From: Haliclystus octoradiatus
Taxonomy: Eukaryota; Cnidaria; Staurozoa; Stauromedusae; Haliclystidae
DNA length: 64,000 nt
NCBI GenBank assembly: GCA_916610825.1
Contig: OU744449.1
Location: forward strand, 22,829,793 to 22,893,792
Reading direction: 5' to 3'
A model generated the notes under the pieces. The model worked only from the letters and a program-made list of their open reading frames with translations. It had not been told where the DNA came from and did no database searches. Every line of letters begins with the position of its first letter. The first letter of the stretch is position 1. Below, in pieces: positions 39,801 to 63,312 of this stretch. The translations under genes and the position numbers were made by a program.

Positions 39801-42800
39801 GGTTTAATTAGGTGCTCAATCCCATTCCAGTACGATTTCAGTAGGTTTTCAGAAGCTATTCAGTATATCCAAGATTCATAGTGTTAATAGTTTATGAAGT
39901 TTAAATGGACAGTTGCCTTTGACTTTTGAGATGTCTTTCAGTAGTTTTACAGTAGAATGGAAAGAATCTAGATTAAAAGTTTCTGGTAAAGCATCATTTC
40001 AATACCTGATAGATCCATAGTGTGGATGGCAGTGAAAGGTTCAACTTCTACATAATTGAATATCTCATAAAACTTACTTCTCCTTTGATATTTAACATCC
40101 TGTCATCTTCAGCACCATAAGCCTGATGAATAAGAAAGGAGAATATATACACATCCAAACAGACTTCTAAAGGTCATTTAAAGGGTAACACAGGCACGAC
40201 AATCATGTCACCGTTAGGGTTAGGCAACTAGGTTTCATGAAGGCAGGTAAAATTCTGAAGAAAATCTAAATATTATTTTAGCAATATATAATATTATTTT
40301 AAGGACAATTTGATGTGAATAGTTTTGTTTTCATAAGAATTTGGTTGATAGAAATGCAAGTTTCTGGAAAAAACATTGTCGGACCTTTGATACACATCGG
40401 TTAACAAGTTCTCAGCAATTTAAAATAAAAGGTCTCAGGGAAGAATCAGGAAAACGTTTTGCGCTCACATGGATTGCAGGGAAAATTTGAAAAACATCAA
40501 AGCTCAGAATAATTTTCTTGATTTCAACACATGAAAACACCGGTTGCAATATTCTAAATTAAAATGTAAAGCAATCCGATAAGAGCAAGCAAAAATCATC
40601 CAAATGAATGTGGAAACTCAAACTTTTGTTAACTTATAAAGCTCCGTAAAAAATTTGACATTGTTTTGACATTGTCTGCTTGAGAGAATCTAGCTATTTC
40701 AGAAAGAGCAAAAATATTTGATTGGCAGAAGGCAGAATGCACAATATTATTCATGAAAACTCTATAGGCTACCATAAACCACATGCAAACATTGATTTGA
40801 AAACATCCAGTTAATAGAACAAAGATTACATACCAAAACCACAGCATCATATGATTCTAGAAAATTTCTTGTTGCCACATCAACACCAACTGAAATATTT
40901 CCAAAGAAACGACAACGGCTATCCGAAGCAACTTCTTCAAATGAATTTATTACATTCTGCAGAAATAAAATTGTCATAAGGTCAGGTTCATGTACAATTA
41001 ATAAAATAATTAATACAATCAACAAGGTCAGGTTCATATTGATATTTTCTGTATGGATTCAACCTTGAGAATGGAATTTCTTTGGAAGCAATATGTCAAA
41101 TTAGAATATTAGAGATAAATAATTTTTACCGCTTCAAACAAAATTCACTGCGTTCATGAACTGTTGATGAATTTCATCTATTACCTTTACAAACATTACA
41201 AACATGTGAACTGTTCATCGACAGTGAAAATTTTGGACAGTTTATAGATAGTTCATGGAACTGTTTTTGAAAGTTAAATGACCTGTTTCTATGAAATTTT
41301 ATAAACTAATCATGAACCGTCCATAAAAATTGGGCCATTTAACGTTCATACACGGTTTCCTCAGGGGTAACCACAATTAAGTACTTCATGAGCTATGCCC
41401 ATTAACTCTTTTGTCATTAAAGGGTTAGGCCTACAACACACTTGCCATGCTTGTATTCAAAATACCAAAATTCGTACTGTAATTGTATTATACTCAAAAC
41501 ATATCCATTCATATGCAACTGTTTGTTGATGCATACTCACCTTAACCTCTGGATGATCTGGCGCTACACCAAAACGAACAAGTCCATATGGAACGGGTAG
41601 CTTTTCAAATATATCAACACGTACCTTTTTGTTGTGCTATATCAGGGAGGAGAGACGAAGAATGAATTATACATCGATTGAAGCAGATATATATATATAT
41701 ATCTATATATTATCACCAGGGTCGTTCCTAAGTCTGGGGATATTAGGGATGTGACACCCCCTGACGACTTGGACAGTCGGCAAATCTTCCTGGAAATATC
41801 TCCAGTCAGCAAAAGAAAGAAGAAATGGCAAAGGGATATTGTTTTCCTGTATTTGCCTGCCAAAAAATTGTATTAAATTGATATTTAAATCAATTTATTT
41901 TGGCAAATAAATCAAATCAAATCAATTCTTGTCCATTTATTCATGTACGCACAAATCAAGAATATTGTATAAAGAGATAATTATCTTCAGCTTTTGACAT
42001 TTGATCAGGACAGATGAAAGAAATCTTGGGCTCGATGGGATCTCTAAAAAACATAGCCTAAAATTTGTTTGTTAACTTTTTGATGTCAGATGATGACATT
42101 AGGTCAATTATATACAATTTAAATACACATGGCAGACATTAACATAAGCGTCATTAATTTTTTCTTTAAATAAAAGTATTGAGAAAATAGCGTTCCATGC
42201 AAAAAAAGAAGTACGGGAATGCCATTCATTCCTCTGGATTCCATTACGGTATTCCACCACAATGAAACTCTTGATTTTATGAAGCCTTCATATTTTCTCT
42301 TTACGTGCCCTTTTGTTCACCATTAAAGCTATAATAGCTCATAGGAAACTGAGCGTGAAGTGCTTAGTATTTGGGTGCATTAGATAGAGCCCCTGAAAAT
42401 TTACCGTCAAACATGTTATAACAATCACCTCTATATCACGGCCATCTGTCTATAACGGTCACTCCAGCAATGTCTAAAATGGTATTTTCTATTGAATTAA
42501 CCCTGCATATAAAGGTCACCTGTATATAGTTGTCAATGTATCTAACTGGCTGTTATTTTCAGGCTTCACTGTAATATAAAACATAATTTGTTTAGGGGTA
42601 CGCCCCAAATCGGACTTCAAGAATACATTCATTGTCCCCCAGCTAATGAAATCCAAAAAATACTGTTGGTTCATGGTTCATCAGATCATATGCGAAAAAC
42701 AGCTCAGGAGCTCATGAACAGTTCATGAACAGTTAATTATTGTTAAATGGCCCCAAATTTTCATGAACAGTTCATGAACAGTTCATGGAAAAAGGGGCCA

Positions 42801-43249: not shown

Positions 43250-43902
43250 TGGGCTAAAAAGAGAAACGTATTAAAATTCTTAAAAAATTATTTTGCTTAC
43301 TATTTATTTTAAAAAAAAATTCTGCCCGCAAAGAAGGCGACCATCTGTTAAATCACGCCATGTGTATGTGTGGAAATAATCCGTGGGCGCCCATAAAATA
43401 TATAGTGGATTTCAAGGGGGCTACTTTTAATTAGGCTAGGTTAAACTTGACCCATTGTGACGACACACAGTCGATGACTCAGGGCACACACAGTGCAGTA
43501 GGGCACACACAGTGCAGTAAGTAACCTGGGTTACAAGAGCTAGGGCCAGGTAGCATACGCACAGATTCATTACGCACGCAATCAGCACGTGAAGTCGATG
43601 CAGCTATTGGCTCTTCTTGGTCGAACACATGCTTTGCCGAGGGTGTGCATGTGATGACCTTATAAGGAAGCCACCACATGGAGGACAAATTAGGCGGAAG
43701 GTAATTAATTATTTAATTCATTCTTGATTGAATTTTGCTAGCTAGCCACGCAGCTTACTAACGTCTTGCTAGCCTTTATATATACACATTTTGTAGTCTG
43801 AGCAATATACCTCGTCGAACGAGAAATAGCCAAGATGCAATCGATATGATGATATTGTAGTGCAATCTGTTATTCAACTTTAGTTTCTAATTAGTTATTA
43901 AT

Positions 43903-44033
43903 TTCCACTGATTATCAGTGTGACTGGTGCTTGGGTGGTGACAGGTTCGCTAGCGGGTCCAACACAGACTCTTAACTACTTCGCTCCCACCAACCAAGCA
44001 CCAAATGCCAACACTCATCAATGGGATGAGTTT
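43903..44033 (+). repeat. Nested stem-loop motif, copy 1 (solo Ngaro-like right end)
   Basis: Hairpin CACTGA/TCAGTG, then TGACT, then GGTGCTTGG pairing with CCAAGCACC at 43993-44002, with inner GGTG...CCCACC. A further terminal hairpin ACTCATC/GGATGAGT follows. It matches the right end of the Ngaro-like element (59898-60038) in order and pairing, but the large apical loop differs completely. Confidence 0.75.
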
Positions 44034-44223
44034 AATGTATATTACAGTGGATAAATAGTGGATATATGCGGCGTATATGGTAGCAAATTTTTCTGAAATT
44101 TTGCGTACAGATAATCAAAATCCAGGAATTTTCAACTAATTGTTGGCACATTTGAATGTGACCTGACTTGGCGTGAAATACACATAAGAAGTAGAAACTA
44201 TCTCGAGTTCCAACTCAGTACAT

Positions 44224-46081: not shown

Positions 46082-49000
46082 ATGTCCAGTATAATGTTGC
46101 AGTGTACTATTATAAGAAGGTTTACCTTGCATAAAATTTGCCAGAGCAAGTATCGTCATGTTCTGCCAGCAACTTCATCTTGTTCCCATTCCCGACCTTC
46201 TACAGTTAATGCCAAAAGGTTGTTACGTCACAATTTTGCCAGATCATATAGCATTGAATCATCTGTAACATTTCCATCGCAAAGATCAAAGACCGGTGCA
46301 AATAACTATGAAGAACTGTGCAGGACTTTTAAACTTGATGTACCTGATTACTTCAATTTTTGTGAAGATGTGTTGGAGAAGTGGGCAGCTGATGACTCTA
46401 AAAAACAGGTATATATATGGGAAAATACTAGATCGAATGGTTATTCTAAGATCACAACAAACGGACTCGAGCAGAGTCTCAGCAGACGGGGAATTTCAAA
46501 GTCAGTGCTGTGCCCACGCTGATCGCAAATAATTCGGGATTGTGGGTTTTGCGCGGGAAATTCACCATATTCGGCAACTTCCCACGGTTGCGCAGATAAT
46601 GTATCTCCCGCACAGTCTATTCTCTGCAGCCTGGAACCCAAGTGAACTAATAAGTAATTGAGACAGTAACACCCTACCGAAGGCACCCATACCACAACCA
46701 CTCCTCTATTTTTAGATGGATCAATGCTCTTTTCGCTGAGAGCAATGATGTTAAATGCTGTTTGACTTTAGCGATCTCAGCCGCGACACTGAAAATTAAT
46801 TTCAACAGATTTCATTGCAGATAGGTCTCGATTGTTGATGCGCAATGGTGCGCCGAAATTACTAGGCCTACTCCCTTTGGACCATTCCATCTTCTCCATC
46901 CTTAGAAGGTACTCATTTGATGTTTTAGATAAAGTCAAGGCTGAGTTGAGCTTTGTTTGCAAGTCAACTGCACTACCGAGATTAAGAATTTTTCTCAAAA
47001 GAGCGCTATGAACATTTTTCTAGTCTTTCACCCCTTAAAAAAGCTCTATTTTACTGTTTGTAATTAACATAATTAGATATGCTTTAGCAATAGTTTACAA
47101 ACTCTGTAAGCATTTTTTACGAATTTGTGAATTTTATGCACTTCAAGAGTGCTCTTTCATTTTACTTAAATTGGAGTTTTGTCATACTCCTTCACTATTG
47201 GTGCACTCCTGAGTGCTCTTCTCTGCAGTCTGGCCAGCTCAGAGTTATATAGGCCTATGCGCAGCAGTGCTAAACTGAGACTGAAAAGAATGATGCTTTT
47301 GTGGGCAAGATCTTGGCCTAACAACCACTTATTTTACCAGGTTTTCGATGGATGAGTGCATTAATAAGCTGTATATTCGGCTAAGGTCCTGGCAAAAACA
47401 TCATTGATTTACTCCAGAAAAAGCTGAATTATCAAACACAATTTTAGGCAAAAGGACTATTTCATCAGGTAATGAGAAACACTGTGTTAGACAACCAGTA
47501 TAGCAGCTCATGATCAAAAACCTTGATAAAAGATTGGAAGTTGTGCTGTATGTCTTCAACCCAAAACAAGAGAGCAACTATGCATAGTAGTGAACTTTAG
47601 GCTAAATCATGGTTAAATGTTAGGGTACAAAACCGAAGGATTTCATTCAGAAATACATATCTTTTTTGTAGAATCAAAATTCCAGATACGCACTTTGGTG
47701 GACAGATGAGAATGGTAATGAAAAGAAATGGAATTATTCAATGCTGGTCAACGAAGCAAAAAGGTTCATAGTCAATTTGTAGTAATAAGTAGCATTATAA
47801 CTCATTATAACTGAAGAAGACTTATTCCATTGACATTAATTGATGTCGTAATTAGTAAGTACATACAGTCAAACCTGTATATAACGGCCAGCTGCGAGAG
47901 ATAGATAAATTGACCACTATAGACAGGTGGCCTTTATATACAGGTTTGATTCAATAGAAAATACTATTTTAGACATTGCAAGAGTGACCACTATAGACAG
48001 GTGGCCGCTTTATAGAGGTGACCGCTATAACAGGTTTGACTGTACCATCAATGCATACCTAAACAGACAAAGCATATCCAGCAAACGTAGCTATTTTTCA
48101 TCTTAGTAAGCAAACTTAAAATATTCTAAACAATTGAAGTTGATGTGACGTAATATGTAGGGATAATAGGTCTGGTCATTATTATCCTATCATGATGTCA
48201 TATCGAACCTATTTTTCCTGAGTTAATGCTTCACAGCATCAGATATTTAGGAATTATCTGCATTCTATTAGTTAAGATCATAATGGATTTAAAAACTCAA
48301 TTAATAATAACCGGCAATAATAATAATAATAACAATTATTAGATACATTGGCTGCTGTAGACAGGTGGTCTCTACATACAGGGTGAATGAATCCAAAAAG
48401 ATTGTTTATTTAATGTGAGACTACGTCTTTTTAATATTAATCAATAGTTTTGATCATAATGTAAAATATTAATATTTATTTTCAAAGGATGTCTAATATT
48501 CTTGAACAATTTTGCACTATTGAAAAGGGTGATTCAGTAATAGTAATCCTACCAAGAATACCAGAATGGTGGATATTAAATATTGCGTGTCTTAGATCAG
48601 GTGAGCCCTATGTTATGAACATGATGCGGAACAATTGATATACTGCAAAATTTATGTTGCTCTAATTTAAATTTAAATTTCAGCTGAGTAATACGCTACA
48701 TAAATGTTTAAAATGCCCTGTTTCCATGAATACATTGATACAACTCAGACATAAGAATTTTCAGACTTTTAGCAGATTTCAGACTATTTTCACATTTCTG
48801 GAGTCTAGATATTGCTGTTTTCCGTTGAAATTCATTATAAATATCTAGATATCTTTGATTTAAGACTAATTGAAATTTGAATTCTCTATCCCGAAAACTG
48901 TACATTAAATTAATGTTCATGAACTTTTCATGAATGTTCCTGACCAATTCATGAACAATTCATTGGGTTTATAAATAATTCACAAGGTTCATAAACTGTT

Positions 49001-52000: not shown

Positions 52001-55000
52001 ATCCTTTATCAATTTGTAAGAGGTTATTATTTTATTTTATAAGGTTTCATACATTTATTATTATGTCTTTCATGAACTTCATTTGCGCATGTTAAAAATA
52101 TGCTTTTCAATTCATAAAAATTTCATTCATCTTTTTTATGAATATTTCATTTGATGTTCATGAACTTTCTACCTGCATGTTTCTTAAAACATTTTAGATT
52201 TCAGTTTCAGTCCATTAAAAAACCCATTAAAAGGAAATTAATTTCACAAACATGAATTTCATCTACTGTACTTTGCATGGGCTTTTTTTTTTCTTACATC
52301 GATTTGATAACTGTCCGTAATATTACTAATAAACAATGATAAATGCTGTATTGTTTTAGGGAAGGATGGATATCGTATTCTGATGTTGTATCTCAAGTTG
52401 ACGATAACCATCAGGTAATTATTGCAATAAAAACCACTTATAAGGGGAGAGAGGTTTACTATGATGTTCCATAAGGATAGAACATGTTTTGTAATTTCTA
52501 ATTGCTTTGTAAAACACTTTTAATACACTTGTAGATGACTTTCTTATACATAAGTTGATTGTTTTGTTTCCTGATAGTGACGTCTAGGATAGAATTGCAA
52601 GATTGGCTGCATTAAAGTGTATATCCCGGATATTGGAAGATTGCTTCTTTAGATAGAGAAAAATTTTCTATTCGTACATGATCTTCTTGTGTTTTTACTT
52701 TGCGCGATCATTTCTCCTTCCAAAATGCAGTCAAAGTGACGATTTTGGGTTAATTTTGTGTCTCACTCTTTTTCCTCGAACAGGAACCCGTTTATTTTCA
52801 ACAAGAGAGTTTACACCGGAAAAAACACTAAACTTTTTACTTATTTGTCTCTAAATAAAAAGTCGCTTAAGCAAATGACAATCTGCTTTCGGTATGAATT
52901 TTTCAACGTTCAGCTGAAGATTTAGAGCTATATTTCATCAATATTTAAGATCCAGGTAAAGAGATATAAGCCTCTAAAGTCAAAATTTTTTAGTTTTGGA
53001 TTTTTCTCACTCAAGTGCTCACGTGATTAGCATCTCTTTACGACTTCCGGTCTAAGCGGTTATCGCTGCTGGTTATTGAAGGTGTGTGGCTATTTTTAAT
53101 ACGCATGAACTATGCCGACTCTGCTTAGACGAAGTCGCAAAGAGGTGTTAATCGTGTGAGCACTTGAGTGAGAAAAATCCAAAAGTAAAAAGTTTTGACT
53201 TTAGAGGCTTATATCTCTTTACCTGGATCTTAAATATTGATCAAATATAGCTCTAAATCTTCAGCTGAACGTTGAAAATTTCATTACGAAAGCAGATTGT
53301 CATTTGGTTTAGCGGTTTTCTATTTAGAGACAAATAAGTAAAAAGTTTAGTGTTTTTTCCGGTGTAAACCTTCTTGTGGAAAATAAGTGGGTTCCTTTTC
53401 GAGGAAAAAGAGTGAGACACAAATTCGTATCTTTGATTGCATTTTTGAGGGGGAAATGCTTGCGCAAAGTAAAAATACAAGAAGAACATGTACTGATAGA
53501 AAATTTTTCCCTATCTAAAGAAACAATCTCCCAATATCCGGGATAGGCTATACACTTTAATAATAGTTGATTTTTCAAACCTGGTTTTGATTTGTGTTAA
53601 TAATATGATTTGGCGTTGAACAGCTCTAAACCAATCTTCAGACTAATGGAGTGTAATTATTGATATGTGTTCGCAGAGGTTTCTACATTCAATTGTGATC
53701 CTAATGAAAACCCTGTATAGACCAACCACCTGTATACAATGACCACTTTAGAGACTGTATTCTATAACAGAGAAGTGTGTTTTAATTTTCACATTAATTT
53801 GTTTAATTATATAGTGCGTTAAAACGAAAGGTACTGATCGTATGGCACTCTTTTTCACAAGTGGCACTACGGGATTACCGAAGATGACAGAACATACTCA
53901 TATTAGCTACGGTATGGGTCATAACTCAACTGGAAGGTACTCAAAAGTTTTTTATCCAAAGTTTAATTTGTAGGAGTACATTTACAATATGCTATAGTGC
54001 TATGTTACGTTTTTGTATTGTTGATGATCATTGTGGGTACAGTTCAGTAATTACAGTTAAATTGTAACTATATATCATGTAGTTGAGGTTAAAATCCAGA
54101 CCTTTTTGAGGGGGTTCGAAGTACGTCCTACGTACAATCGTTATGCTGGAATTGCCTCGTTTGAATGTATGCCATCAGATGCCACGAGGCATAAGTGCAC
54201 TGCATTACCTGGAATCATGTGATCTTGGTCAGCCTCTTCTCCACAACAGAGGGTAAGTCTCGTGATACTGTAAGGGTGTAGTCATACTTGCATGTGCTAG
54301 CTTGCTAGCAGGTCGATAACGAACGAACGAATTCGCATTTAATTAAACGCAACGCAAATATGTCAAGACGTACACGAAACAGTCGTGATTCGATTGCTTC
54401 AATGCCTTATGTGATACCGGAATCAAGATCATCTTTGGTTACGTCTCCTCAAGTCACTTCAGAAGTTCCTTTTCCGAGTGGTATGTTTGAAGACCCTCAA
54501 CAACGCCAGGATTTTGTTAACGACGTGGCACAAGCTGTAATGGCAGCTAGTAGACCATCACCATCGGCTCCGGTAAGCGCACCATCGGCACATTTACCAA
54601 CTGCAAATGCCAGCGTTAATCCAGGTACGTCAGGTTTATTGTCTATGCCCTCTTTTGTGAATACTTTTTCTATGCCGTTGTCTAGCGGAGACGCCGTTGC
54701 AGCTGCCACTTTTTTATCTGGTACATCGGCATCACTGGATACTACGACACCAATCACCAGCAGCCTATTGCCTACGCTGCCACAGGTCTTTCAACCTTAT
54801 ATTATTGGTCCAGGTTACTCGCCAATTCCAGCTAAGCTGGTTGGTCAGATAGTCAATGGTCGCTTCATAGAGCTTTCTGAACTATTGTCGCCTTCGGTGG
54901 TTGACGTTGAGACAGAGCCACAATTAGTTATGGACGGTCTAGCTATTTTAATTGGTAAGCCAAAATCAAATCGTCGAAAGATTGACGATATTATCAGCTG

Positions 55001-58000
55001 GGTGGAAGCTTTCACAATATTTATGTCAGTACTAACCACTTATTGCCCTGGACGATGGAAGGACTTATCGTCTTATAAACTTGTCATAATCCGGCTATTC
55101 CGCCAATTCAATTGCTGGGCGTGGTTGTCCTATGATACAGCCTTTCGACAACACGCTGCAGCTAGTCAACAATCAGATTGGTCTCTAATCAACCATCAAT
55201 TATACACATACCATACTGCTGGAGCTGTTGTTCGCTCTCGACTAGACCACACGCGTTCGGAAAAAGGTGGTACAGCTACAAGAGGTGCAGAACCACGAGG
55301 TACCACTAACGGATTACGAGTTTGCACATCATGGAACGGTGGATGGTGTTCATCGCGGTATGGAGTATGCCGATTCAATCATATATGGTCAAAATGTTCA
55401 GAAAGCCATCGAAGTGTTGACTGCAATAAACAATCTAATGTGCCAGCTTTGGTACAACCTCTCAAGCCTTCCGACAGCAGGCAGTTGCAACGGCGTTAGT
55501 CCTTATATATATGTTGGTCTAGTTTGTTTATTTTATTTCTATTCTGTTGATTTCCTTCACTGACAAAATAGTAGTTAGTGGATTTATAATTGTTTTTATC
55601 TTATTTACTCTTTTCTTAATGTTATCATAGTGTTTCAATGATTATTTGACACTCAATTCAATTCGTTGTGTTTTTTTGTGTCTATTTATTGTCATTAAAA
55701 AACGGTGAAGGGTTGTTCTCAGTTTCTTGTTTGTGGCCATATAAGTCTGAAAACCGAGGCATGTGTTACAAAAAGCGAGTTATTGGTCATTGAGCTTATT
55801 CATAAAATATGTCTTGTTTTTGTTTTTGAGTGTCTCAACTGTGACGATTTAATTATCCGAAACATTGTTTATCACGACTTCAATAAGGTCACGATTTCAA
55901 ACCAAGGTCGAGGAATCTATGCGTGCAATAGTACTGTCAGTTTTATTTACAAAAACATAAACTGCTGTTAGCGGTAAATGAAAAAATATATTCAATTTAT
56001 CGCACCTTGATCGCTGGTTATTGTTGTAACTTTCGATGTTGTTATACGAGTGTAGATTAAATTGGAGCCGATTGAATTGTAAATCAAAACTTAAATGCAA
56101 ATTTACGTTACTATTCAAGTAAATCTCAAGGCAGTTAGTTTACCTTGCTTGTGTCGCCAAAAAAAAAAAAAAACGTTACTTGTAGACCAAACAAATAGGC
56201 AGCTTCACAAATTCGTTTCTCAATCCAATAGTTCATTATAAAATGTAGTCAAAGCCGATTGGCTAATAATTGCTTCCTCTCTTTTAGATTGGCCAAGGCA
56301 TGGTCAATGTTATTGCGTAACACCCCCCCTTTGTTTGTCTCATTTAGCTGCCAAATTCATCAGCTACGATCGAAAATAATTTTTTTAGATAGCAGCCGAT
56401 CTTTTCAGACGTAACGACCGAGAAGTCCGCAATCAAATTTAACGGATTCACCAAATTAAAATACGGAATACAGAATAGCGGACCAATATCCGTAATCCGT
56501 AATTTTTTTTTTTTTTTTTTTTTTTTTTATTCAGTGTTGATTGAGCGAATTATTGGATGTGGCTCAGTGTGTTTTGATTTTTGTTCTAGCTGCCAGTCTT
56601 TTGCCTTCAATTGCATCAATCACTCCTTTACAAGTGGATCGTTTTGCCTATTATTTGACCTCTCATCCTAATTCCTTATTTGCTTCTTACGTTATAAGTG
56701 GAATCAGAGAAGGCTTTAGATTGGGTTTTAACCCTATGCAACGTCTCAAGTCATCCAAAAAAAATAATGCTTCGGCCCACAAATATTCTTCAGTGATTGA
56801 TAACTATCTGGACAATGAAGTATACTTAGGAAGAGTTGCTGGCCCTTTCAACATTCCTCCTATCAATGGACTTCAAGTCAGTAGCTTTGGTGTTATTCCT
56901 AAGAAGAATCAACCAGGAAAATGGCGACTCATAGTAGATTTGTCAGCCCCCTGTGGCTCTAGCGTCAACGATGGCATTGATAAGTCTGAATTTAGTATGC
57001 ATTATGTCCAGCTAGACCAGATTCTCTCAATGATAGGAAGCCTTGGGGTTGGAGCGCTGATGGCAAAATTCGATGTTGAAGCTGCTTACCGGAATATTCC
57101 AGTTCACCCGACAGACCGGGCATTACTAGGTATGAAGTGGCGAGGCAATTACTTTGTAGACTTGACCCTACCATTTGGGTTGAGATCGGCACCATTTATT
57201 TTCAACGCAGTGGCTGAAGCGGTCGAATGGATTCTATCATTCCATTTTGATGTGTCAAATATTGTCCACTATTTGGACGACTTTATCATGGTAGGGCCAC
57301 CTGATTCAGATCAATGTGCTCGCCAATGGTATTTAGCACAAGAGGTATGCAGGGAATTGGGCCTACCACTCAATTCCAAAAAATGTGAAGGACCTTCTAC
57401 GTCGATGGTTGTACTAGGCATTGAGCTAGACTCTCTAACTCAGACTGCTTGTCTCCCAGCAGACAAACTGGCTAACCTTCAATCTCTGATAGAGTCGTGG
57501 GTTTCCAAACGGCGATGTAACCGCAACGAATTGGAATCTCTTATTGGTCATTTACACCATGCAGCTAAAGTAGTTTGGCCTGGTCGCACCTTTATACGCC
57601 GTATGTTGAATTTGCTGGGCTCCTTTAGATCAAACTCTCATCCGGCGCGACTGAATTGCGAGTTCAAGCAAGATTTGTTTTGGTGGCATAACTTCCTTGG
57701 TCAATGGAATGGCGTCAGTTTTTGGTTGTTCCCAGGAATGCCAACAGTCGCTGAATTTGAATTGTTTACTGATGCTTCTGGTTCAATGGGTTATGGTGCA
57801 TACTACCAAGGAAATTGGTTTAATGGAATCTGGAGCAAATATCAAGCAGAGCAATCAATTGCATATAAGGAACTATTCCCCATTGTAGTTGCAGCTCACA
57901 TTTGGGGTTCAGACTGGACCCGTTGTCATGTAAATTTTCGATGCGACAACGAAGCAGTTGTTCACATTCTCAATTGTCGGACTTCTAAGGTTCCTATAAT

Positions 58001-61000
58001 CATGCGACTATTAAGAAAATTACTATTTGTGGCCGCACAACAGAATTTTTCTTTCACTTCACAGCATATTGCTGGCATCAACAACGGGATTGCTGATGCA
58101 TTATCTCGCTTTCATTGGCAGGTATTCTTCAAACTGGCACCCTCTGCCAAAGACTGTCCAACACTGCTAGACAACCGGTTGTTGATGGACCTGGCATAAA
58201 TCAACTGCAAGCAAGATGTCAGCAACTTATATGCAACAGCCTGGCACCCTCCACTAGACGTACGTATTCATCGGCCCAACATCGTTTTCTGGTGTTCTCA
58301 ACTCAGCATGGCTATTCATCTCCTTGTCCCACTACTGAGTCAATGTTATGCTTGTTTGTGACTCATTTGTCTGATTCACTCAAGCTACCTTCAATCAAGG
58401 TTTACCTATCGGCTGTAAGAGCATTACATCTAGAGCTAGGTTTTGCAGACCCACTAATAAATTGTGCACGCCTCCATCGACTTTGTCAAGGAATTAAAAA
58501 GACACACCTTGACAGCACTATACCTCGTCTGCCCATTACAGACTCGCTCATGGAAATTATTCATCGGTCATTGAATTTCTCATGTGAAGACCACATAATG
58601 TTTTGGGCTGCATGCACGCTAGCATACTTTGGATTCCTCAGGTCATCAGAGTTCACCGTACCGAATCTACAAAGTTTTGATTCAGCAATCCATTTGCAGC
58701 TTTCTGATCTGTCTTTCGATTCAGTCATTACACCTACTTGTATGCGAGTGAGAATCAAGGCATCCAAAACTGATTCATTCCGTGAAGGATGTTATGTCCA
58801 TATTGGCCTTGGATCATCAAGACTGTGTGCTGTTGCAGCTATGTCTGCTTATCTGTTCAAGCGTGGTGAAAAGGCTGGACCCCTTTTCTTATATAAATCT
58901 GGCGATACCTTGTCTCGTCTTCGTCTGTCATCTTGGTTGCGCTCTATCTTTGTGGAGTCCAAAATTCCCGGAAATTTCTCAACGCACAGTTTCAGAATTG
59001 GGGCCGCAACAGTGGCTGGTCGTAATGGCATTCCAGATCATATCATCAAAGCTCTAGGACGCTGGAATAGCCAAGCGTATCTGCTATATACCAGAACTTC
59101 ACCAGCATCACTTTCAACCTTTTCCAGTGTTCTGGCATAGTTTGATGTCTTTTCCAGAAAGTCAGTTTGATGTTTGTGCTTGCTGCTTGGGCATAATTTG
59201 GTGGGAGCTACAGATAAGAACCTGTATCTCTTCTCCAAGCACCTTGGAGTCCAATTTTGGTGGAGACAGGTTAGCACGAGTTTAGCTGCCTAACGAACGA
59301 ATGAGTAACTCCCACCAACCAAGCACCAATCCCAAAACCCCACCAAAGGGTGGGGATTTTAATTGTAACTATATATCATGTAGTTGAGGTTAAAATCCAG
59401 ACCTTTTTGAGGGGGTTCGAAGTACGTCCTACGTACAATCGTTATGCTGGAATTGCCTCGTTTGAATGTATGCCATCAGATGCCACGAGGCATAAGTGCA
59501 CTGCATTACCTGGAATCATGTGATCTTGGTCAGCCTCTTCTCCACAACAGAGGGTAAGTCTCGTGATACTGTAAGGGTGTAGTCATTCTTGCATGTGCTA
59601 GCTTGCTAGCAGGTCGATAACGAACGAACGAATTCGCATTTAATTAAACGCAACGCAAATATGTCAAGACGTACACGAAACAGTCGTGATTCGATTGCTT
59701 CCCACCCGCCCTCTCCATTACTGTCTTTGCTGATTATACTTTAGATAAGTTAGCAGGTATTTAGTCTCATATAGGCTAGGCTTTGTTCGACACTATAGTG
59801 ACTGCTATTAGATGAATGTAGAGTCTATGTTTGAGTTAATATTTCTGTATAAAAATGTAGAATGTCTAACCTTTATTTCAACAGGGTAGTTTTAATTTCT
59901 CCACTGAATATCAGTGTGACGGTGCTTGGTTCGAGTGGTGGAGACAGGTTAGCACGAGTTTAGCTGCCTAACGAACGAATGAGTAACTCCCACCAACCAA
60001 GCACCAATCCCAAAACCCCACCAAAGGGTGGGGATTTTAACATGTATGTAACTGCCAGCTACTAGAGGTAGATAAATTGACCACTATAGACAGGTGGCCT
60101 TTATATAAAGGTTTGATTCAATAGAAAATACTATTTTAGACATTGCAAAAGTGACCACTATAGACAGGTGGCCGCTGTATAGAGGTGACTGTTTTAACTG
60201 ATTTGGCTGTAGGGGATTTATGATTTGATTTCTTGAATTATTTCAATAATTATTGTCTAGTTTGATCCCCAGTTTATTGTTATTATAAGTTTGTTGAATT
60301 TTATATGACTCATTAAAGTGCATATTCTTGTCGCAAATGGCGTTTATACCGAAAAGTTTAATACCGAAAAAAAAGCCGCGCAAGGAAAATGTTTAATACC
60401 GAAAAGTTGAATACCGAAAAAAGCGGCAAAATAAAAAAGTTTAACAGCATATTTTTTTATCAAGTTTTTTTAATTTACTTCGATACATATCTAAGTATGA
60501 CATACTAAGATAAACAGTGAATGGTACTGCCCGTTCTATTGTGAGAGACATTTAAAGTCTAGAAACATTTAAAACCGCACTGTATTGAAGTCACGGGTGC
60601 CAAATCCCGCTTTTCTTCACTAACGCCATTTAAAAATCGCGCGCGGCATAAGATATTACCGCGCGATTGAAAAAAATGTTTAACGCCGAAAATTTCACAA
60701 ATGGCGGTTTTCAAAAAAAGTTTAATACCGAAAATACATTTTCGGCATTAAACTTTTCGGTATAAACACATACAACCATTCTTGTTCAAATGGTTGTTTC
60801 TCTTAATTAAATCAAATAAATTAAATTTATTAAATCAAACTTTCTGGACCTGTAAATGATGCCAGTTTAAACGTATCTAGCTATCACATTGAATGCTACA
60901 TTAGTCCATCGAACTATCATCACATTAGAAAAATTATTATATGCCAGGAAAGGTTTTTGCCTAGCAATATGAGCAATATGAGCAATAGCCTAATGATTTC

Positions 61001-63312
61001 CAGTTTTGTGAAAAATTATTGCTGTAAAACTTATCAGGTTTACTGAATAAATGATGATGATTTTATAGACTGGTAGTCTTTATGTCTTTATAGTAGAATT
61101 CTGTATGAAAGATTCTCAAGGTTGACCATCCATTTTACTGTAAAGTATTCTGCTAATTATGCTAGTGTACTTTTATGAAAACAGTATAACAACGAGCTCT
61201 CTAATTATACATCTAGGTAGATTATATTTCATTGACACAGCTGTATCACACAATTAAATTTTTGTGTAGATTCTGGCTAGATTTGACTCGAGATGATGTC
61301 ATGTGGAATATGGCTGATACTGGTTGGGCTAAAACTGCTTGGTCATCAATATTTGGTCCATGGTCACAGGGAGCGTGTGTATTTGTTCACAATTCCCAAA
61401 AGTTTGAAGCAACAACAGCACTTGATGTGTTGCAACGTTATCCTATAACAGTTGCTTGCATTCCACCAACTGCATATAGAATGATTGTCCAAGAGGATCT
61501 GTCAGATTATAAATTTAATCATTTGCGACATTGTGTTAGCGCTGGTGAGCCATTGAACCCAGAAGTTGTTCAAACATGGCATAAAGCTACTGGTCTTGCC
61601 ATTCGTGAAGGCTACGGTCAAACTGAAACGGTAAATACAATTTTAGCCTGCTTAAATTAAGAGCAAGTAAAAATTGCCACCAATTTTCGTTACAGTTATC
61701 TGAATTTGCACTTATTCTTAATTGTTCAAGAAGGACTTGATCAGAAAATAGTTTATTATAGAGTTTCAGATTGAGGTTGCAGATAAGCGGGAATTTCATT
61801 TAAACGGGTCACACAGCTGTACTACCTAACCTATTATTTTAGGTGCAAATCTATAAGCTTAAAAACAGATACTATATTACTACTTTTCTTCTAATTTGCT
61901 CCAGCCTTCTCAATTATAGGTTTGCAAGATATTTGCTTTTGTTAGACCTTATCCTAACAGTGTAAACAGGGTTCGACAAAAGAGGGGATCCTGGGATCCT
62001 AGATCCTGGAAGGCTAGAGCAAATTCAGTGAAAGGGCGTTCCAGTAATGAAATATATTCCAATGCACCCCTAATTATTAGACCTTCTAATGCTCCAAATT
62101 TTATCTAGGCCTTGCTTTGTGGTACTTTACCATGCATGAAAGTGAAACCAGGATCAATGGGAAAACCAGCACCTGGATTTGATTTACAGGTAAGTATTTG
62201 GGATTTGTGCAATCTATGTTACCCCAAACGTTTTTAAACATTTTTTAATGTGGTTAAATCAAAGATTTAAGTGAAGTTAAAATGATGTATAGTGTGCTAC
62301 TGTTAGGCTATCTAGGACCTGTTTAATAGTAGCGGAAGTGAACAAGATGCAAGGTTAAAACCCCATTAGATTAGTGGATCAACTACTGAAGCAATACGAG
62401 TCAGTGAGTGTAAGTAAGTAATGTCACACCCCTTTGTACATGTGCGCATGTTCCAAAGGGCTGGGTGTGTCAATCACTCTTGCCATCGTGACCTAGCTTG
62501 CTAGTTGCTTTCGAGAAGCTCTTGAATTTTCATGTTGCTACCTCTTTAAGAATCGTGAAGATCTTGCCTTTGCTAATTCCAGGCATATCACTCTACTACA
62601 TACTATCATGTGCTACATGTACAATAACATTTTCTAATTGTCTCATTCAAATGCAATGTGGCATCCTATGCTTGACATCAAGGTATGCCGGTGCTAAACT
62701 GCACATTGTCATCACTTTATTTTATGTGCTATACTGCACTTTTTGAGTATTGTACTATACTGCACTTATATAGTACACTATGTGCTATACTGCACAGTTA
62801 CAAAGTATGTGTTATACTACACAGATTCATCATTATAGATTGGTATGTGCTACACTGCACATAGCGGATTATGTGCTATACTGCACTTGAGGAAGTTGCT
62901 ATACTGCAATGAGGCTAATCGATATTACAACTGATCAATTGTGTCCACACCCTCCTTCCTCTCTCTCTCTCAACATGGTTAGGTAAGTATATTAGGTATT
63001 CCACTGACATAGCAGTGTGACTGGTGCTTGGTCTTGATGGTGACAGGTCTGCTGTCTACGGTAGCATAGCACTGGTTATATATGGTCAACCGCCAGCCGT
63101 CCCACCAACCAAGCACCAAAAGCCAAACAATATATTACAATATCAATGATACATACATAGATTTTAATATGTCTATTTAATTAATTGCATACAATGATTA
63201 CCCATTTCAGATAATTGACGAGAATGGGAATCCTGCTACTGATGGGAATGAAGGTGATTTGGCTATCAAGATACACCCTAATCGTCCAATTGGTCTCTTT
63301 ACGAAATACCTG
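46082..63312 (+). CDS. Mitochondrial medium-chain acyl-CoA synthetase (ACSM type), exons 1-10, 3' end outside window
   Basis: Activates medium-chain fatty or aromatic acids to CoA thioesters via an acyl-AMP intermediate, in mitochondria. Exons: 46082-46408, 47672-47763, 48488-48600, 49487-49605, 51423-51481, 52360-52414, 53815-53936, 61270-61630, 62109-62189, 63211-63312. All introns are GT-AG with agreeing phases (477 codons). The N-terminus (about 1-65) is basic, Ser-rich and poor in acids, fitting a presequence. Family landmarks: [17 protein letters not shown], the P-loop-like AMP motif TSGTTGLPK (about 270-278), [26 protein letters not shown] and REGYGQTET (about 408-416), then [13 protein letters not shown] and EGDLAIKI. 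The C-terminal roughly 100 residues, with the hinge and CoA-site lysine, are not in the window. The 7.3 kb intron 7 contains the Ngaro-like element, intron 4 a LINE, and intron 10 an LTR element. No stop or frameshift in the exons. Confidence 0.94.
46668..46948 (-). repeat. tRNA-derived SINE, reverse orientation, head truncated
   Basis: Starts 'acaccctaccgaaggcaccc' and continues through 'cgatctcagccgcgacactg' to 'aaagtcaaggctgagttga', where the tRNA-like part should begin but does not. Truncated relative of 37297-37681, in ACSM intron 1. Confidence 0.85.
47867..48046. repeat. MITE family A, best-preserved copy
   Basis: Runs from 'acagtcaaacctgtatataa' to 'ctataacaggtttgactgta', with symmetric inverted ends. 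Useful as the family reference. ACSM intron 2. Confidence 0.9.
49635..50765 (-). pseudogene. 5'-truncated, frameshifted LINE (non-LTR retrotransposon), RT C-terminal half
   Basis: Minus-strand frame from about 50765: the RT palm region with [19 protein letters not shown] and the catalytic FFADD box, then [19 protein letters not shown] and [17 protein letters not shown]. At about 50165 a one-base frameshift moves it into a second frame ([16 protein letters not shown] ... [15 protein letters not shown]) ending near 49740. The 3' end terminates in a short (CAAT)n tract at 49615-49640 (minus strand), a tail type seen in CR1/L2/Jockey-like LINEs. The 5' half with endonuclease is missing. It is in ACSM intron 4, opposite to the gene. 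Confidence 0.9.
51685..51890. repeat. MITE family B copy
   Basis: Packed 'gttcatgaac'-type steps from 'ttcatgaactgttcatc' to 'catgaactgtttttgcag', with 'aaatggctcaaaattc' in the centre. ACSM intron 5. A smaller cluster of the same motif is at 48910-49010. Confidence 0.75.
52611..53561. mobile_element. Foldback element with about 445-bp arms
   Basis: Left arm 52611-53058 and right arm about 53119-53561 are inverted copies along almost their whole length ('ttaaagtgtata', 'tatcccggatattgg', 'ctctttttcctcgaa', 'tcacgtgattagc'/'ctaatcgtgtgag'). A loop of about 60 bp separates them. The arms differ by scattered substitutions and small indels, so the element is not brand new. ORFs 53253-53578 lie in one arm and have no recognised domain. 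ACSM intron 6. Confidence 0.93.
54060..54400 (+). repeat. Ngaro-like repeat A1 (341 bp)
   Basis: Direct repeat of 59361-59701. It contains 'tgctagcttgctagcagg', a strong splice-donor-like GGTAAGTC at 54252-54259, and the gag start codon with its first 13 codons, so the gag N-terminus is duplicated at the other end. The only difference noticed is 'gtcatactt' here against 'gtcattctt' in A2. Confidence 0.95.
54360..55499 (+). CDS. Gag-like protein of the Ngaro-like element (379 aa)
   Basis: Putative nucleocapsid protein. The N-terminal 150 residues are Ser/Pro/Thr-rich and low complexity. Residues about 165-290 form a more conserved core ([35 protein letters not shown]). Near residues 322-357 lies a Cys/His cluster: TSWNGGWC, then CRFNH, then KC, then SHRSVDC. 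This W-N-x-G-x-C ... C-x-F-x-H ... C-x-x-x-x-H-x-x-x-x-C arrangement is typical of DIRS/Ngaro Gag proteins and probably binds nucleic acid through zinc. The start ATG lies in repeat A1. Confidence 0.82.
   Translation: MSRRTRNSRDSIASMPYVIPESRSSLVTSPQVTSEVPFPSGMFEDPQQRQDFVNDVAQAVMAASRPSPSAPVSAPSAHLPTANASVNPGTSGLLSMPSFVNTFSMPLSSGDAVAAATFLSGTSASLDTTTPITSSLLPTLPQVFQPYIIGPGYSPIPAKLVGQIVNGRFIELSELLSPSVVDVETEPQLVMDGLAILIGKPKSNRRKIDDIISWVEAFTIFMSVLTTYCPGRWKDLSSYKLVIIRLFRQFNCWAWLSYDTAFRQHAAASQQSDWSLINHQLYTYHTAGAVVRSRLDHTRSEKGGTATRGAEPRGTTNGLRVCTSWNGGWCSSRYGVCRFNHIWSKCSESHRSVDCNKQSNVPALVQPLKPSDSRQLQRR
55500..56540 (+). other. 1.0 kb gap between gag and pol ORFs of the Ngaro-like element
   Basis: No recognised domain. 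An 88-codon ORF (55705-55971) is unassigned and may be chance. The segment has a poly(A) run at 56160-56173 and a T run of about 25 at 56504-56528. In the pol frame a TGA stops at 56538-56540. Confidence 0.6.
56541..58199 (+). CDS. Reverse transcriptase - RNase H polyprotein of the Ngaro-like element
   Basis: Copies the element's RNA into DNA and degrades the RNA strand. Counting from the TTG at 56541: pol N-terminal motif [14 protein letters not shown] fingers RLIVDLSAP, catalytic [10 protein letters not shown] (about 174), [10 protein letters not shown] and YLDDF (about 244), then RNase H with FTDASG (about 408), KEL, CDNEAV and NGIADALSR (about 516). All catalytic acids are present and there is no stop. 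The frame has no ATG before codon 66 (56736), which lies inside conserved sequence. Translation therefore probably depends on an upstream spliced exon, recoding or a non-AUG start. An acceptor-like 'gatttttgttctag' ends at 56589. The last 85 nt overlap the recombinase ORF in another frame. Confidence 0.93.
   Translation: MSELLDVAQCVLIFVLAASLLPSIASITPLQVDRFAYYLTSHPNSLFASYVISGIREGFRLGFNPMQRLKSSKKNNASAHKYSSVIDNYLDNEVYLGRVAGPFNIPPINGLQVSSFGVIPKKNQPGKWRLIVDLSAPCGSSVNDGIDKSEFSMHYVQLDQILSMIGSLGVGALMAKFDVEAAYRNIPVHPTDRALLGMKWRGNYFVDLTLPFGLRSAPFIFNAVAEAVEWILSFHFDVSNIVHYLDDFIMVGPPDSDQCARQWYLAQEVCRELGLPLNSKKCEGPSTSMVVLGIELDSLTQTACLPADKLANLQSLIESWVSKRRCNRNELESLIGHLHHAAKVVWPGRTFIRRMLNLLGSFRSNSHPARLNCEFKQDLFWWHNFLGQWNGVSFWLFPGMPTVAEFELFTDASGSMGYGAYYQGNWFNGIWSKYQAEQSIAYKELFPIVVAAHIWGSDWTRCHVNFRCDNEAVVHILNCRTSKVPIIMRLLRKLLFVAAQQNFSFTSQHIAGINNGIADALSRFHWQVFFKLAPSAKDCPTLLDNRLLMDLA
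58115..59140 (+). CDS. Tyrosine recombinase of the Ngaro-like element
   Basis: Expected to integrate the circular double-stranded cDNA. Catalytic set visible in order: Arg in [10 protein letters not shown], Lys in [10 protein letters not shown], His and Arg in HSFRIGAAT, Trp in LGRWNS (commonly His/Trp), and the nucleophile Tyr in YLLYTRT. An SAM-like N-terminal core-binding region covers about residues 40-130 ([13 protein letters not shown] ... [13 protein letters not shown]). The open frame starts at 58115 with TTG, inside the RNase H ORF, and the true start is uncertain. No inactivating change seen. Confidence 0.93.
   Translation: MAGILQTGTLCQRLSNTARQPVVDGPGINQLQARCQQLICNSLAPSTRRTYSSAQHRFLVFSTQHGYSSPCPTTESMLCLFVTHLSDSLKLPSIKVYLSAVRALHLELGFADPLINCARLHRLCQGIKKTHLDSTIPRLPITDSLMEIIHRSLNFSCEDHIMFWAACTLAYFGFLRSSEFTVPNLQSFDSAIHLQLSDLSFDSVITPTCMRVRIKASKTDSFREGCYVHIGLGSSRLCAVAAMSAYLFKRGEKAGPLFLYKSGDTLSRLRLSSWLRSIFVESKIPGNFSTHSFRIGAATVAGRNGIPDHIIKALGRWNSQAYLLYTRTSPASLSTFSSVLA
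59258..59360 (+). repeat. Ngaro-like repeat B1 (103 bp)
   Basis: Direct repeat of 59936-60038. It contains 'gcctaacgaacgaatgag', 'ccaaccaagcaccaatccc' and the terminal hairpin CCCCACC-aaa-GGGTGGGG. It lies directly against A2. Confidence 0.95.
59361..59701 (+). repeat. Ngaro-like repeat A2 (341 bp)
   Basis: Second copy of A1, including the duplicated gag ATG at 59661 and 13 codons, after which the sequence departs from gag. Confidence 0.95.
59936..60038 (+). repeat. Ngaro-like repeat B2 (103 bp), right terminus
   Basis: Second copy of B1 and right end of the element. Together with the 38 nt upstream (59898-59935) it can form the nested stem-loop also found at 43903-44033 and 62999-63125. 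B1 lacks the upstream hairpin. Confidence 0.95.
60039..60211. repeat. MITE family A copy split by the Ngaro-like element (right part)
   Basis: Begins 'aacatgtatgtaactgccag' and ends 'gatttggctgta'. The missing first bases 'tacagtta' lie at 54052-54059, left of the element. Joining the flanks restores the family A start. Confidence 0.88.
60340..60768. repeat. Foldback MITE with 'taccgaaaagtttaa' ends
   Basis: Inverted ends: 'gcgtttataccgaaaag' at 60340 and 'cttttcggtataaac' at 60768. The internal 'gtttaataccgaaaa' motif recurs several times, with a CG-rich core ('atcgcgcgcggcataag' and 'ttaccgcgcgatt'). ACSM intron 7. Confidence 0.85.
62720..62915 (+). repeat. Irregular array of 'tatgtgctatactgcac'
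   Basis: At least six full or near-full copies (about 62723, 62750, 62779, 62806, 62843, 62870, and a partial at 62898) with spacers of variable length and sequence. This is unlike a simple tandem satellite. It lies about 80 nt left of a nested stem-loop motif. ACSM intron 9. Confidence 0.85.
62999..63125 (+). repeat. Nested stem-loop motif, copy 3
   Basis: Same order as copies 1 and 2: hairpin CACTG/CAGTG, TGACT, GGTGCTTGG pairing with CCAAGCACC, and inner GGTGACAGG ... CCCACCAA. The apical loop sequence is unrelated to the other copies. The distal terminal hairpin is not evident. ACSM intron 9, ending about 85 nt before exon 10. Confidence 0.72.

Follow-up and report, generated by a model that had tools for sequence, protein, structure and literature searches.

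Three places in the stretch of DNA analysed here (the window, 64,000 nucleotides) carry the same nested stem-loop arrangement, raising the question of what kind of genetic entity it belongs to and whether it has been kept as structure or as sequence. A preliminary description had reported the shared motif at 43903-44033 (W1), 59898-60038 (W2) and 62999-63125 (W3), and had proposed selection on structure, with a cis-acting structure or a recombination site as possible roles. All three places read as described, with hundreds of exact matches in the genome; the intervals are right for the motif itself and too short as extents, since each covers just the 3' part of a longer unit.

The motif at the three window loci

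Read from the sequence, the common parts of the three loci are a CACTG/CAGTG hairpin, TGAC, a 9-bp outer stem and an inner stem. At W1, the hairpin arms occupy 43906-43910 (CACTG) and 43916-43920 (CAGTG), and GGTGCTTGG begins at 43926. At W2, CACTG (59902-59906) and CAGTG (59912-59916) are followed by TGAC and then by the arms GGTGCTTGG (59921-59929), GGTGG (59937-59941), CTCCCACC (59987-59994) and CCAAGCACC (59997-60005); the order of parts at W3 is identical to that at W2. Terminal hairpins are found at W1 (ACTCATC/GGATGAGT) and W2 (CCCCACC/GGTGGGG) and are missing from W3. Predicted folds of the + strand are stable relative to shuffled sequences (z = -4.00, -4.51 and -2.88 for W1, W2 and W3; 0, 0 and 1 of 200 shuffles, respectively, folding as well), and those of the - strand are about equally so (z = -4.08, -4.11 and -3.10).

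A tyrosine-recombinase retrotransposon with split repeats

W2 forms the right end of an element, as had been proposed: a tyrosine-recombinase (YR) retrotransposon at 54062-60040 on the + strand, to which all features below likewise belong, with the order A1-gag-RT/RH-YR-B1-A2-X-B2, recognized from its direct repeats and its RVT_1 and Phage_integrase matches. The A1 repeat (54062-54400) contains the 5' box GAGGTTAAAATCC, whose TTAAAATCC portion is inverse-complementary to the 3' end GGATTTTAA. ORF1 (54360-55499) is gag-like by position only and has no Pfam match. ORF2 (56541-58199) encodes the reverse transcriptase (RT; RVT_1, E 1.5e-15, above the Pfam cut-off) and RNase H (RH; RVT_3 at 17 bits, below the cut-off of 21.6), and ORF3 (58097-59140) the recombinase, in which HSFR ... 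LLYTR was read by eye and which in this copy matches Phage_integrase at E 1.5e-4 and 22 bits, below the cut-off of 27.1 that related copies exceed. No methyltransferase domain was matched by Pfam in the three frames scanned, and there is no room for one between RT/RH and YR because their reading frames overlap at 58115-58199. Downstream of the YR gene lie a 5' half-stem (59184-59207) with the outer arm TGCTTGG, partly eroded here, and the inner arm TTGGTGGGAG, facing the arm in B1; a hairpin h (59233-59249, CTCCAAG-CAC-CTTGGAG) 5' of B1; and the direct repeats B1 (59258-59362, starting at TGGTGGAGACAGG) and A2 (59363-59701). The segment X (59702-59935) opens with a C-rich tract and carries the CACTG/CAGTG hairpin (59902-59916) and the outer 5' arm, whereas the B2 repeat (59936-60040) holds the inner 5' arm GGTGG, a GACAGGT box, the loop and both 3' arms, followed by the terminal hairpin at 60016-60033 and the TTTTAA end. 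Read by eye, the flanks are consistent with an insertion that separated TACAGT(T/C)AAA from C(A/C)TGTAT and duplicated no target sequence. As a separate observation, X and its counterparts in other families show a splice-site-like order (a pyrimidine tract with AG, then often GGTAAGT) 5' of the hairpin, and the A repeat also contains GGGTAAGT.

The presence of an RT, a YR downstream of it and split direct repeats (A1 - B1A2B2 after the YR), together with the lack of a methyltransferase match, agrees with Ngaro elements; the split-repeat arrangement, with X between A2 and B2, was read in other families as well. Judged by gene order and split direct repeats, the motif is very probably the 3' end of Ngaro-type retrotransposons, with two of the three window loci representing solo A-X-B units. 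The window element resembles this type in the succession of gag-like ORF, RT/RH and YR, in internal repeats after the YR and in the occurrence of solo AB repeats, and differs from it in three respects: A2 and B2 are set apart by X in the six families whose A1 and A2 were compared, A-ORF-B units occur alone, and the 3' end is conserved and paired, with two 5' halves. None of these three differences appears in the accessible parts of PMC8547959, PMC9210276, PMC4157794 and PMC3783388. The Cafeteria Ngaros, according to the accessible part of PMC8547959, have isolated AB units scattered in the genome that are compared with solo LTRs; the solos here are alike, except that they also carry X and the structured end, in about 20 families. 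Split repeats and solo AB repeats are already known, and searches of the openly accessible literature brought up no account of the conserved paired end. Two other identities were rejected. A DIRS1-like element would have inverted terminal repeats, which are absent: the inverted-repeat relative likewise has an internal copy of the joined ends along with RT and YR genes, whereas the terminal repeats here are direct and only about 9 nt of the ends are inverse-complementary. A MITE or SINE is excluded by members that carry RT and YR and by copies that finish at a TTTAA-type end.

The two loci called solo are solo terminal-repeat units of sister families, comparable to solo LTRs. W1 belongs to an A-X-B unit at 43415-44035 (+ strand, 621 bp) of a sister family that includes the L030 copy, whose YR is 52% identical to that of the window over 263 residues. 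W3 belongs to a unit at 62249-63167 (+ strand, 919 bp) of another sister family including L083 and L095, both of which carry a YR, L095 having an RT upstream in addition. Repeated GTGC-n-GCAC palindromes were seen at 62714-62886 within this second unit, and comparable repeats lie upstream of the C-rich tract in L016, L022 and L031. In L030, the X-type end is interrupted after GACAGG (3' of the outer 5' arm) by what looks by eye like a hAT-transposase end.

Coding units also occur alone. One (L101+L090) starts with an A repeat 99.4% identical to A2 of L015, and for the other (L102+L093) the stretch starts inside A; both end at B and continue into sequence other than A2. Lone coding units may arise from recombination between B1 and B2, and solos from recombination between A1 and A2. 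At three further loci (L103, which begins TGACAGG, L110 and L115) the left end is cut in or near the start of B with the B arm kept, which could reflect reverse-transcription stops or plain deletions.

Occurrence across the genome

In the 262 Mb genome, the pattern CAGTGTGACN{0,3}GGTGCTTGG has 326 exact matches against 0 for the reversed pattern, the 5' core CCACTGN{4,6}CAGTGTGAC has 692 against 1, and CCCACCAACCAAGCACC has 638 against 0. With hundreds of matches set against 0-1 in reversed controls, the motif is not a product of chance. The units fall into about 20 families when grouped by eye; where an RT is listed upstream, the motif-bearing families other than that of the window have RTs 58-78% identical to the window RT. 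No relatives of the RT were found in viral contigs.

The X-type end, as it recurs in these families, comprises a C-rich tract (CCCACCC or similar), often GGTAAGT, then TTCCACTG-loop-CAGTGTGAC, GGTGCTTGG and the inner arm, followed by the GACAGGT box, a family-specific loop, CTCCCACCAA, CCAAGCACC, CCA and the TTTAA end. Of 81 rows, 55 have a CACTG/CAGTG hairpin with a 5-nt loop and 26 one with a 6-nt loop; the stem arms are separated by 48-295 nt. The apical loops, reported as unrelated, do differ from family to family and yet are alike within each. The terminal hairpins, likewise real at W1 and W2, had been taken for covariation; they are two clade-specific versions (CTCATC/GATGAG or CCCCACC/GGTGGGG, between CCA and the TTTAA end) that are missing in several families, which excludes the terminal hairpin as a general feature.

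At E <= 0.01, the genome has at least 132 Phage_integrase matches, as counted from the 150 of 180 candidates that were scored. Among 18 YR loci picked for diversity, 11 from several families have the B arm in their 3' region, nine with an X-type end and two (L090, L093) with the coding-unit end only; at the other seven, nothing of the motif kind was found. At the loci oriented by their YR, motif and YR gene are on the same strand. On contig C1 below 29.11 Mb, an exact motif lies within 2.5 kb downstream of 7 of 21 YR matches and upstream of none. The pattern for hairpin h, CTCCAAGCACN{0,2}TTGGAG, has 138 exact matches in the genome and 0 in the control; it occurs on the same strand within 1.2 kb after 31 of 98 YR matches on five contigs, before none, and once on the opposite strand. 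The two exact 5' patterns mark 108 motif sites on the same portion of C1, and since the exact hairpin h precedes just 13 of these within 2 kb, most copies seem to be solos. Among 20 copies that were found by the 3' arm and are absent from the exact 5' patterns, 11 show the hairpin with 0-3 changes, one (L121) has a coding-type end and the remainder are cut or too decayed to read; none offers a clean new stem variant.

Pairing constraint on the inner stem, sequence conservation of the outer stem

Co-variation was analysed in a set of 90 sequences, consisting of 78 loci, the three window places and nine of the 18 YR loci (the seven without motif and the two without X being omitted). Both arms were obtained from 81 of them, the failures being L010, L011, L016, L022, L029, L030, L061, L074 and L075. 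The registers of the inner arm differ by family (that of L088 is shifted), for which reason arms were swapped between families instead of pairs being counted in fixed columns; the tests used 29 and 20 of the 81 rows, picked by eye so that each family is represented by one row or a few, with the start of the outer 5' arm set at the best match to GGTGCTTGG. Since most loci had been picked by exact 5' patterns, the set understates variation in the hairpin and the outer 5' arm; conversely, 17 rows (the L059-L078 set) were picked for lack of an exact outer 5' arm.

Whole arms pair better with their own partners (-28.67) than after swapping (-26.39, sd 0.45) in 29 families, none of 20,000 swaps being as good, and the same count of 0 in 20,000 was obtained for the 20-family subset. 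For the inner stem of the 20 families, 2 of 20,000 swaps were as good on the strand as read and 1 of 20,000 on the complementary strand. The count rises to 53 of 20,000 without L088 (19 families) and to 1,270 of 20,000, a weak signal, when L065, L073 and L077 are removed as well. Across families, the inner stem is constrained to pair. No such signal is seen for the apical part on the GACAGGT side (10,188 of 20,000 swaps as good) or for the outer 9-bp stem (3,667 of 20,000), where own arms are no better than any swap once L073 is left out. The outer stem is conserved as sequence, without compensatory change. Counted per distinct arm pair and separately by selection set, its positions comprise 32 conserved pairs and four mismatches, with neither G-U nor A-C, in the YR-chosen loci (nine rows, four distinct); 111 conserved, one compensated (L073), four G-U, eight A-C and 20 other in the loci without an exact arm (17 rows, 16 distinct); and 91 conserved, six G-U, two A-C and nine other in the arm-chosen loci, a biased set (44 rows, 12 distinct). 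Compensation beyond L073 is found in none of the three sets, and the asymmetry of G-U over A-C does not single out the + strand. Selection on structure, as first suggested, is thus borne out for the inner stem and not for the outer. Compensation in the very stem that had been stressed amounts to one of 16 distinct arm pairs at loci without the exact 5' arm; genome-wide copies lacking compensatory changes, named in advance as the contrary outcome, are what the outer stem presents and the inner stem does not.

One 3' arm with two 5' partners

With the 3' arms inside B and the outer 5' arm outside it, the stem straddles the B boundary. In most elements measured, B starts at or shortly before a GGTGGTGACAGG box; exceptions are L095 and L087, whose ungapped match extends further to the left over few identical bases, and L096, whose match is shortened by a small insertion. 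The compound elements read have two distinct 5' halves, one after the YR gene facing B1 and one in X facing B2. The coding-side half, 3' of the YR, consists of GGTGCTTGG, (TT)TGGTGGGAG and hairpin h (CTCCAAGCACC-TTGGAG), then B1; it is eroded in L030 and partly so in the window copy. Across seven families, one of which has the same arm as another, coding-side halves pair with their own B1 arm at a mean of -31.2 versus -28.9 after permutation, 0.79% of 5,040 permutations being as good. Shuffled coding-side halves paired as well in 28 of 500 cases for the eroded L030, three of 500 for L083 and none of 500 for each of the other five families.

The fit is clearest in L088, where the B arm is altered and the two 5' halves both suit it. 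That arm reads CACCCCATCAG-CCAAGCACC; the X half, CTGATGGGGTG, reaches -34.4 with it against -17.8 with the canonical arm, and the coding half, CTGAT..GGGG, reaches -31.8 against -26.4. The comparison is weak for L129, which combines a coding-type end with an L026-family arm and has no YR within 1.5 kb upstream (-22.9 own, -21.6 canonical), and for the X half of L026 (-28.7 own, -28.3 canonical).

Functional interpretation

Based on the conserved order of parts, the two 5' halves and the co-variation of the inner stem, all of them observed, the motif is understood tentatively, with a probability of a little under one half (0.45-0.48), as a cis-acting structure at the 3' end of the element's RNA or cDNA, by which that end would be recognized for reverse transcription, for particle uptake or for both. 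The structure stands directly before the terminal TTTAA, which together with the 5' box forms a likely recombinase site, and would be read through pairing in the inner stem and through sequence in the outer. The 3' arms belong to the B repeat, of which each copy has a 5' half of its own, so that either B copy could be presented in the same fold, and an arm with two partners could guide a strand transfer that carries RT between the B copies and keeps B1 and B2 identical. We infer this strand transfer, with RNA as the active molecule and RT or Gag as its reader. The arms are 48-295 nt apart, with a family-specific loop between them, unlike those of a fixed-spacing protein dyad, which favours the 3'-end signal. 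Against it stand the lack of outer-stem co-variation, implying that much of the conservation is of sequence; the equality of the two strands in inner-stem swaps and in folding; the weakness of the inner-stem signal without the four most divergent families; and the weak tests on L026 and L129.

The main rival, supported by the absence of outer-stem compensation and in our assessment a serious possibility though unlikely, is a recombinase apparatus acting at the DNA level. Here the 9-mer that recurs as GGTGCTTGG outside B and as CCAAGCACC within both h and B would be an accessory 'arm-type' binding site of the YR, the TTTAA end and the 5' GGTTAAA boxes would be the core site, and inverted orientation, not base pairing, would be decisive. 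The 9-mer is conserved as sequence between families whose YRs are as low as 52% identical. The last bases of the element are inverse-complementary to its 5' box, and the two vary in concert (GATTTTAA with TTAAAATC, GTTTAA with TTAAAC): the longest exact matches in 11 families are 9, 6, 7, 4, 5, 9, 9, 7, 9, 8 and 7 nt, nine of the 11 reaching at least 6 nt, and their mean of 7.27 falls to 5.92 after swapping (0.0001); the fit is poor in L012 and L025, which have the GAGTTTAA end. Target left flanks of 16 insertions are T-rich, with T at -5 in 13, at -4 in 11 and at -3 in 10. The terminal TTTAA and the 5' box are likely a recombinase site. Such an apparatus leaves unaccounted for the co-variation of the inner stem, the fit of both L088 halves to their own arm, the 48-295 nt of arm spacing and the 5- or 6-nt loop of the CACTG/CAGTG hairpin.

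The 3'-end signal may be extended to a two-part genome, a speculative proposal that we consider unlikely as a whole. In it, an A-ORF-B coding unit would be joined head to tail, via the recombinase site, to a non-coding A-X-B unit; both would possess separate ends and a separate 5' half and could exist alone (L101+L090 and L102+L093 on one side, the solos on the other), and the common B arm with its two 5' partners would guide strand transfer. If this is true, the split direct repeats gain a mechanism; to our knowledge, how reverse transcription starts and how both ends are restored in split-repeat YR retrotransposons is unsolved. Conserved pairing across the repeat boundary, with two different partners for one arm, points to specific bases for mutation and to the particular compensating changes that should restore mobility, and the marker of hairpin plus arm finds hundreds of non-coding copies invisible to protein searches.

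Integron integrases use folded attC sites, and by analogy a folded single-stranded cDNA might serve as the recombination substrate. The motif resembles attC in its long inverted arms and free loops beside a YR, here encoded in the same element and next to the recombination end, and the two strands do about equally well in folding and in inner-stem swaps. This possibility is improbable. attC is bacterial, and the crossover here, deduced from TTTAA and the empty site, appears to lie outside the stem, not at unpaired bases inside. Comparably improbable is a motif that now has no function and that the families share by common descent, as an ancestral end multiplied through copying. The predominance of apparent solos and the uncompensated outer stem would agree with this; against it, motif-bearing families with RTs 58-78% identical to the window's keep the non-coding boxes while their loops differ, the inner stem co-varies, and two separate 5' halves match one arm. 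Other retroelements carry ribozymes, and strong folds with the fixed boxes TGAC and GACAGGT might suggest a new self-cleaving type at the 3' end, a highly improbable one in that the window has no Rfam match at gathering scores (in keeping with the earlier exclusion of the hammerhead), a permissive search of 59650-60100 gave SECIS_5 as best match (E = 0.74) and no ribozyme at E up to 5, and no catalytic core was recognized by eye. A cis-acting structure and a recombination-site role, both named at the outset, remain the live options.

Surroundings of the element

The element at 54062-60040 is inserted at the left edge of a MITE-like repeat (TACAGTCAAACC..., GACCACTATAGACAGGTGGCC), of which there are many copies, at 60041-60211, 47872-48044, 42402-42547 (inverted) and other places in the window; more of them flank other motif loci (L002, L011, L021, L056). 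Directly left of the retrotransposon, at 52622-53545, is a fold-back element of nested inverted repeats, with arms of 293 nt (92% complementary) and 129 nt (87%). Open frames at 46082-46522 and 61232-61660 resemble, by eye, exons of a medium-chain acyl-CoA synthetase; if they are such exons, one of the introns of this gene may harbour the element.
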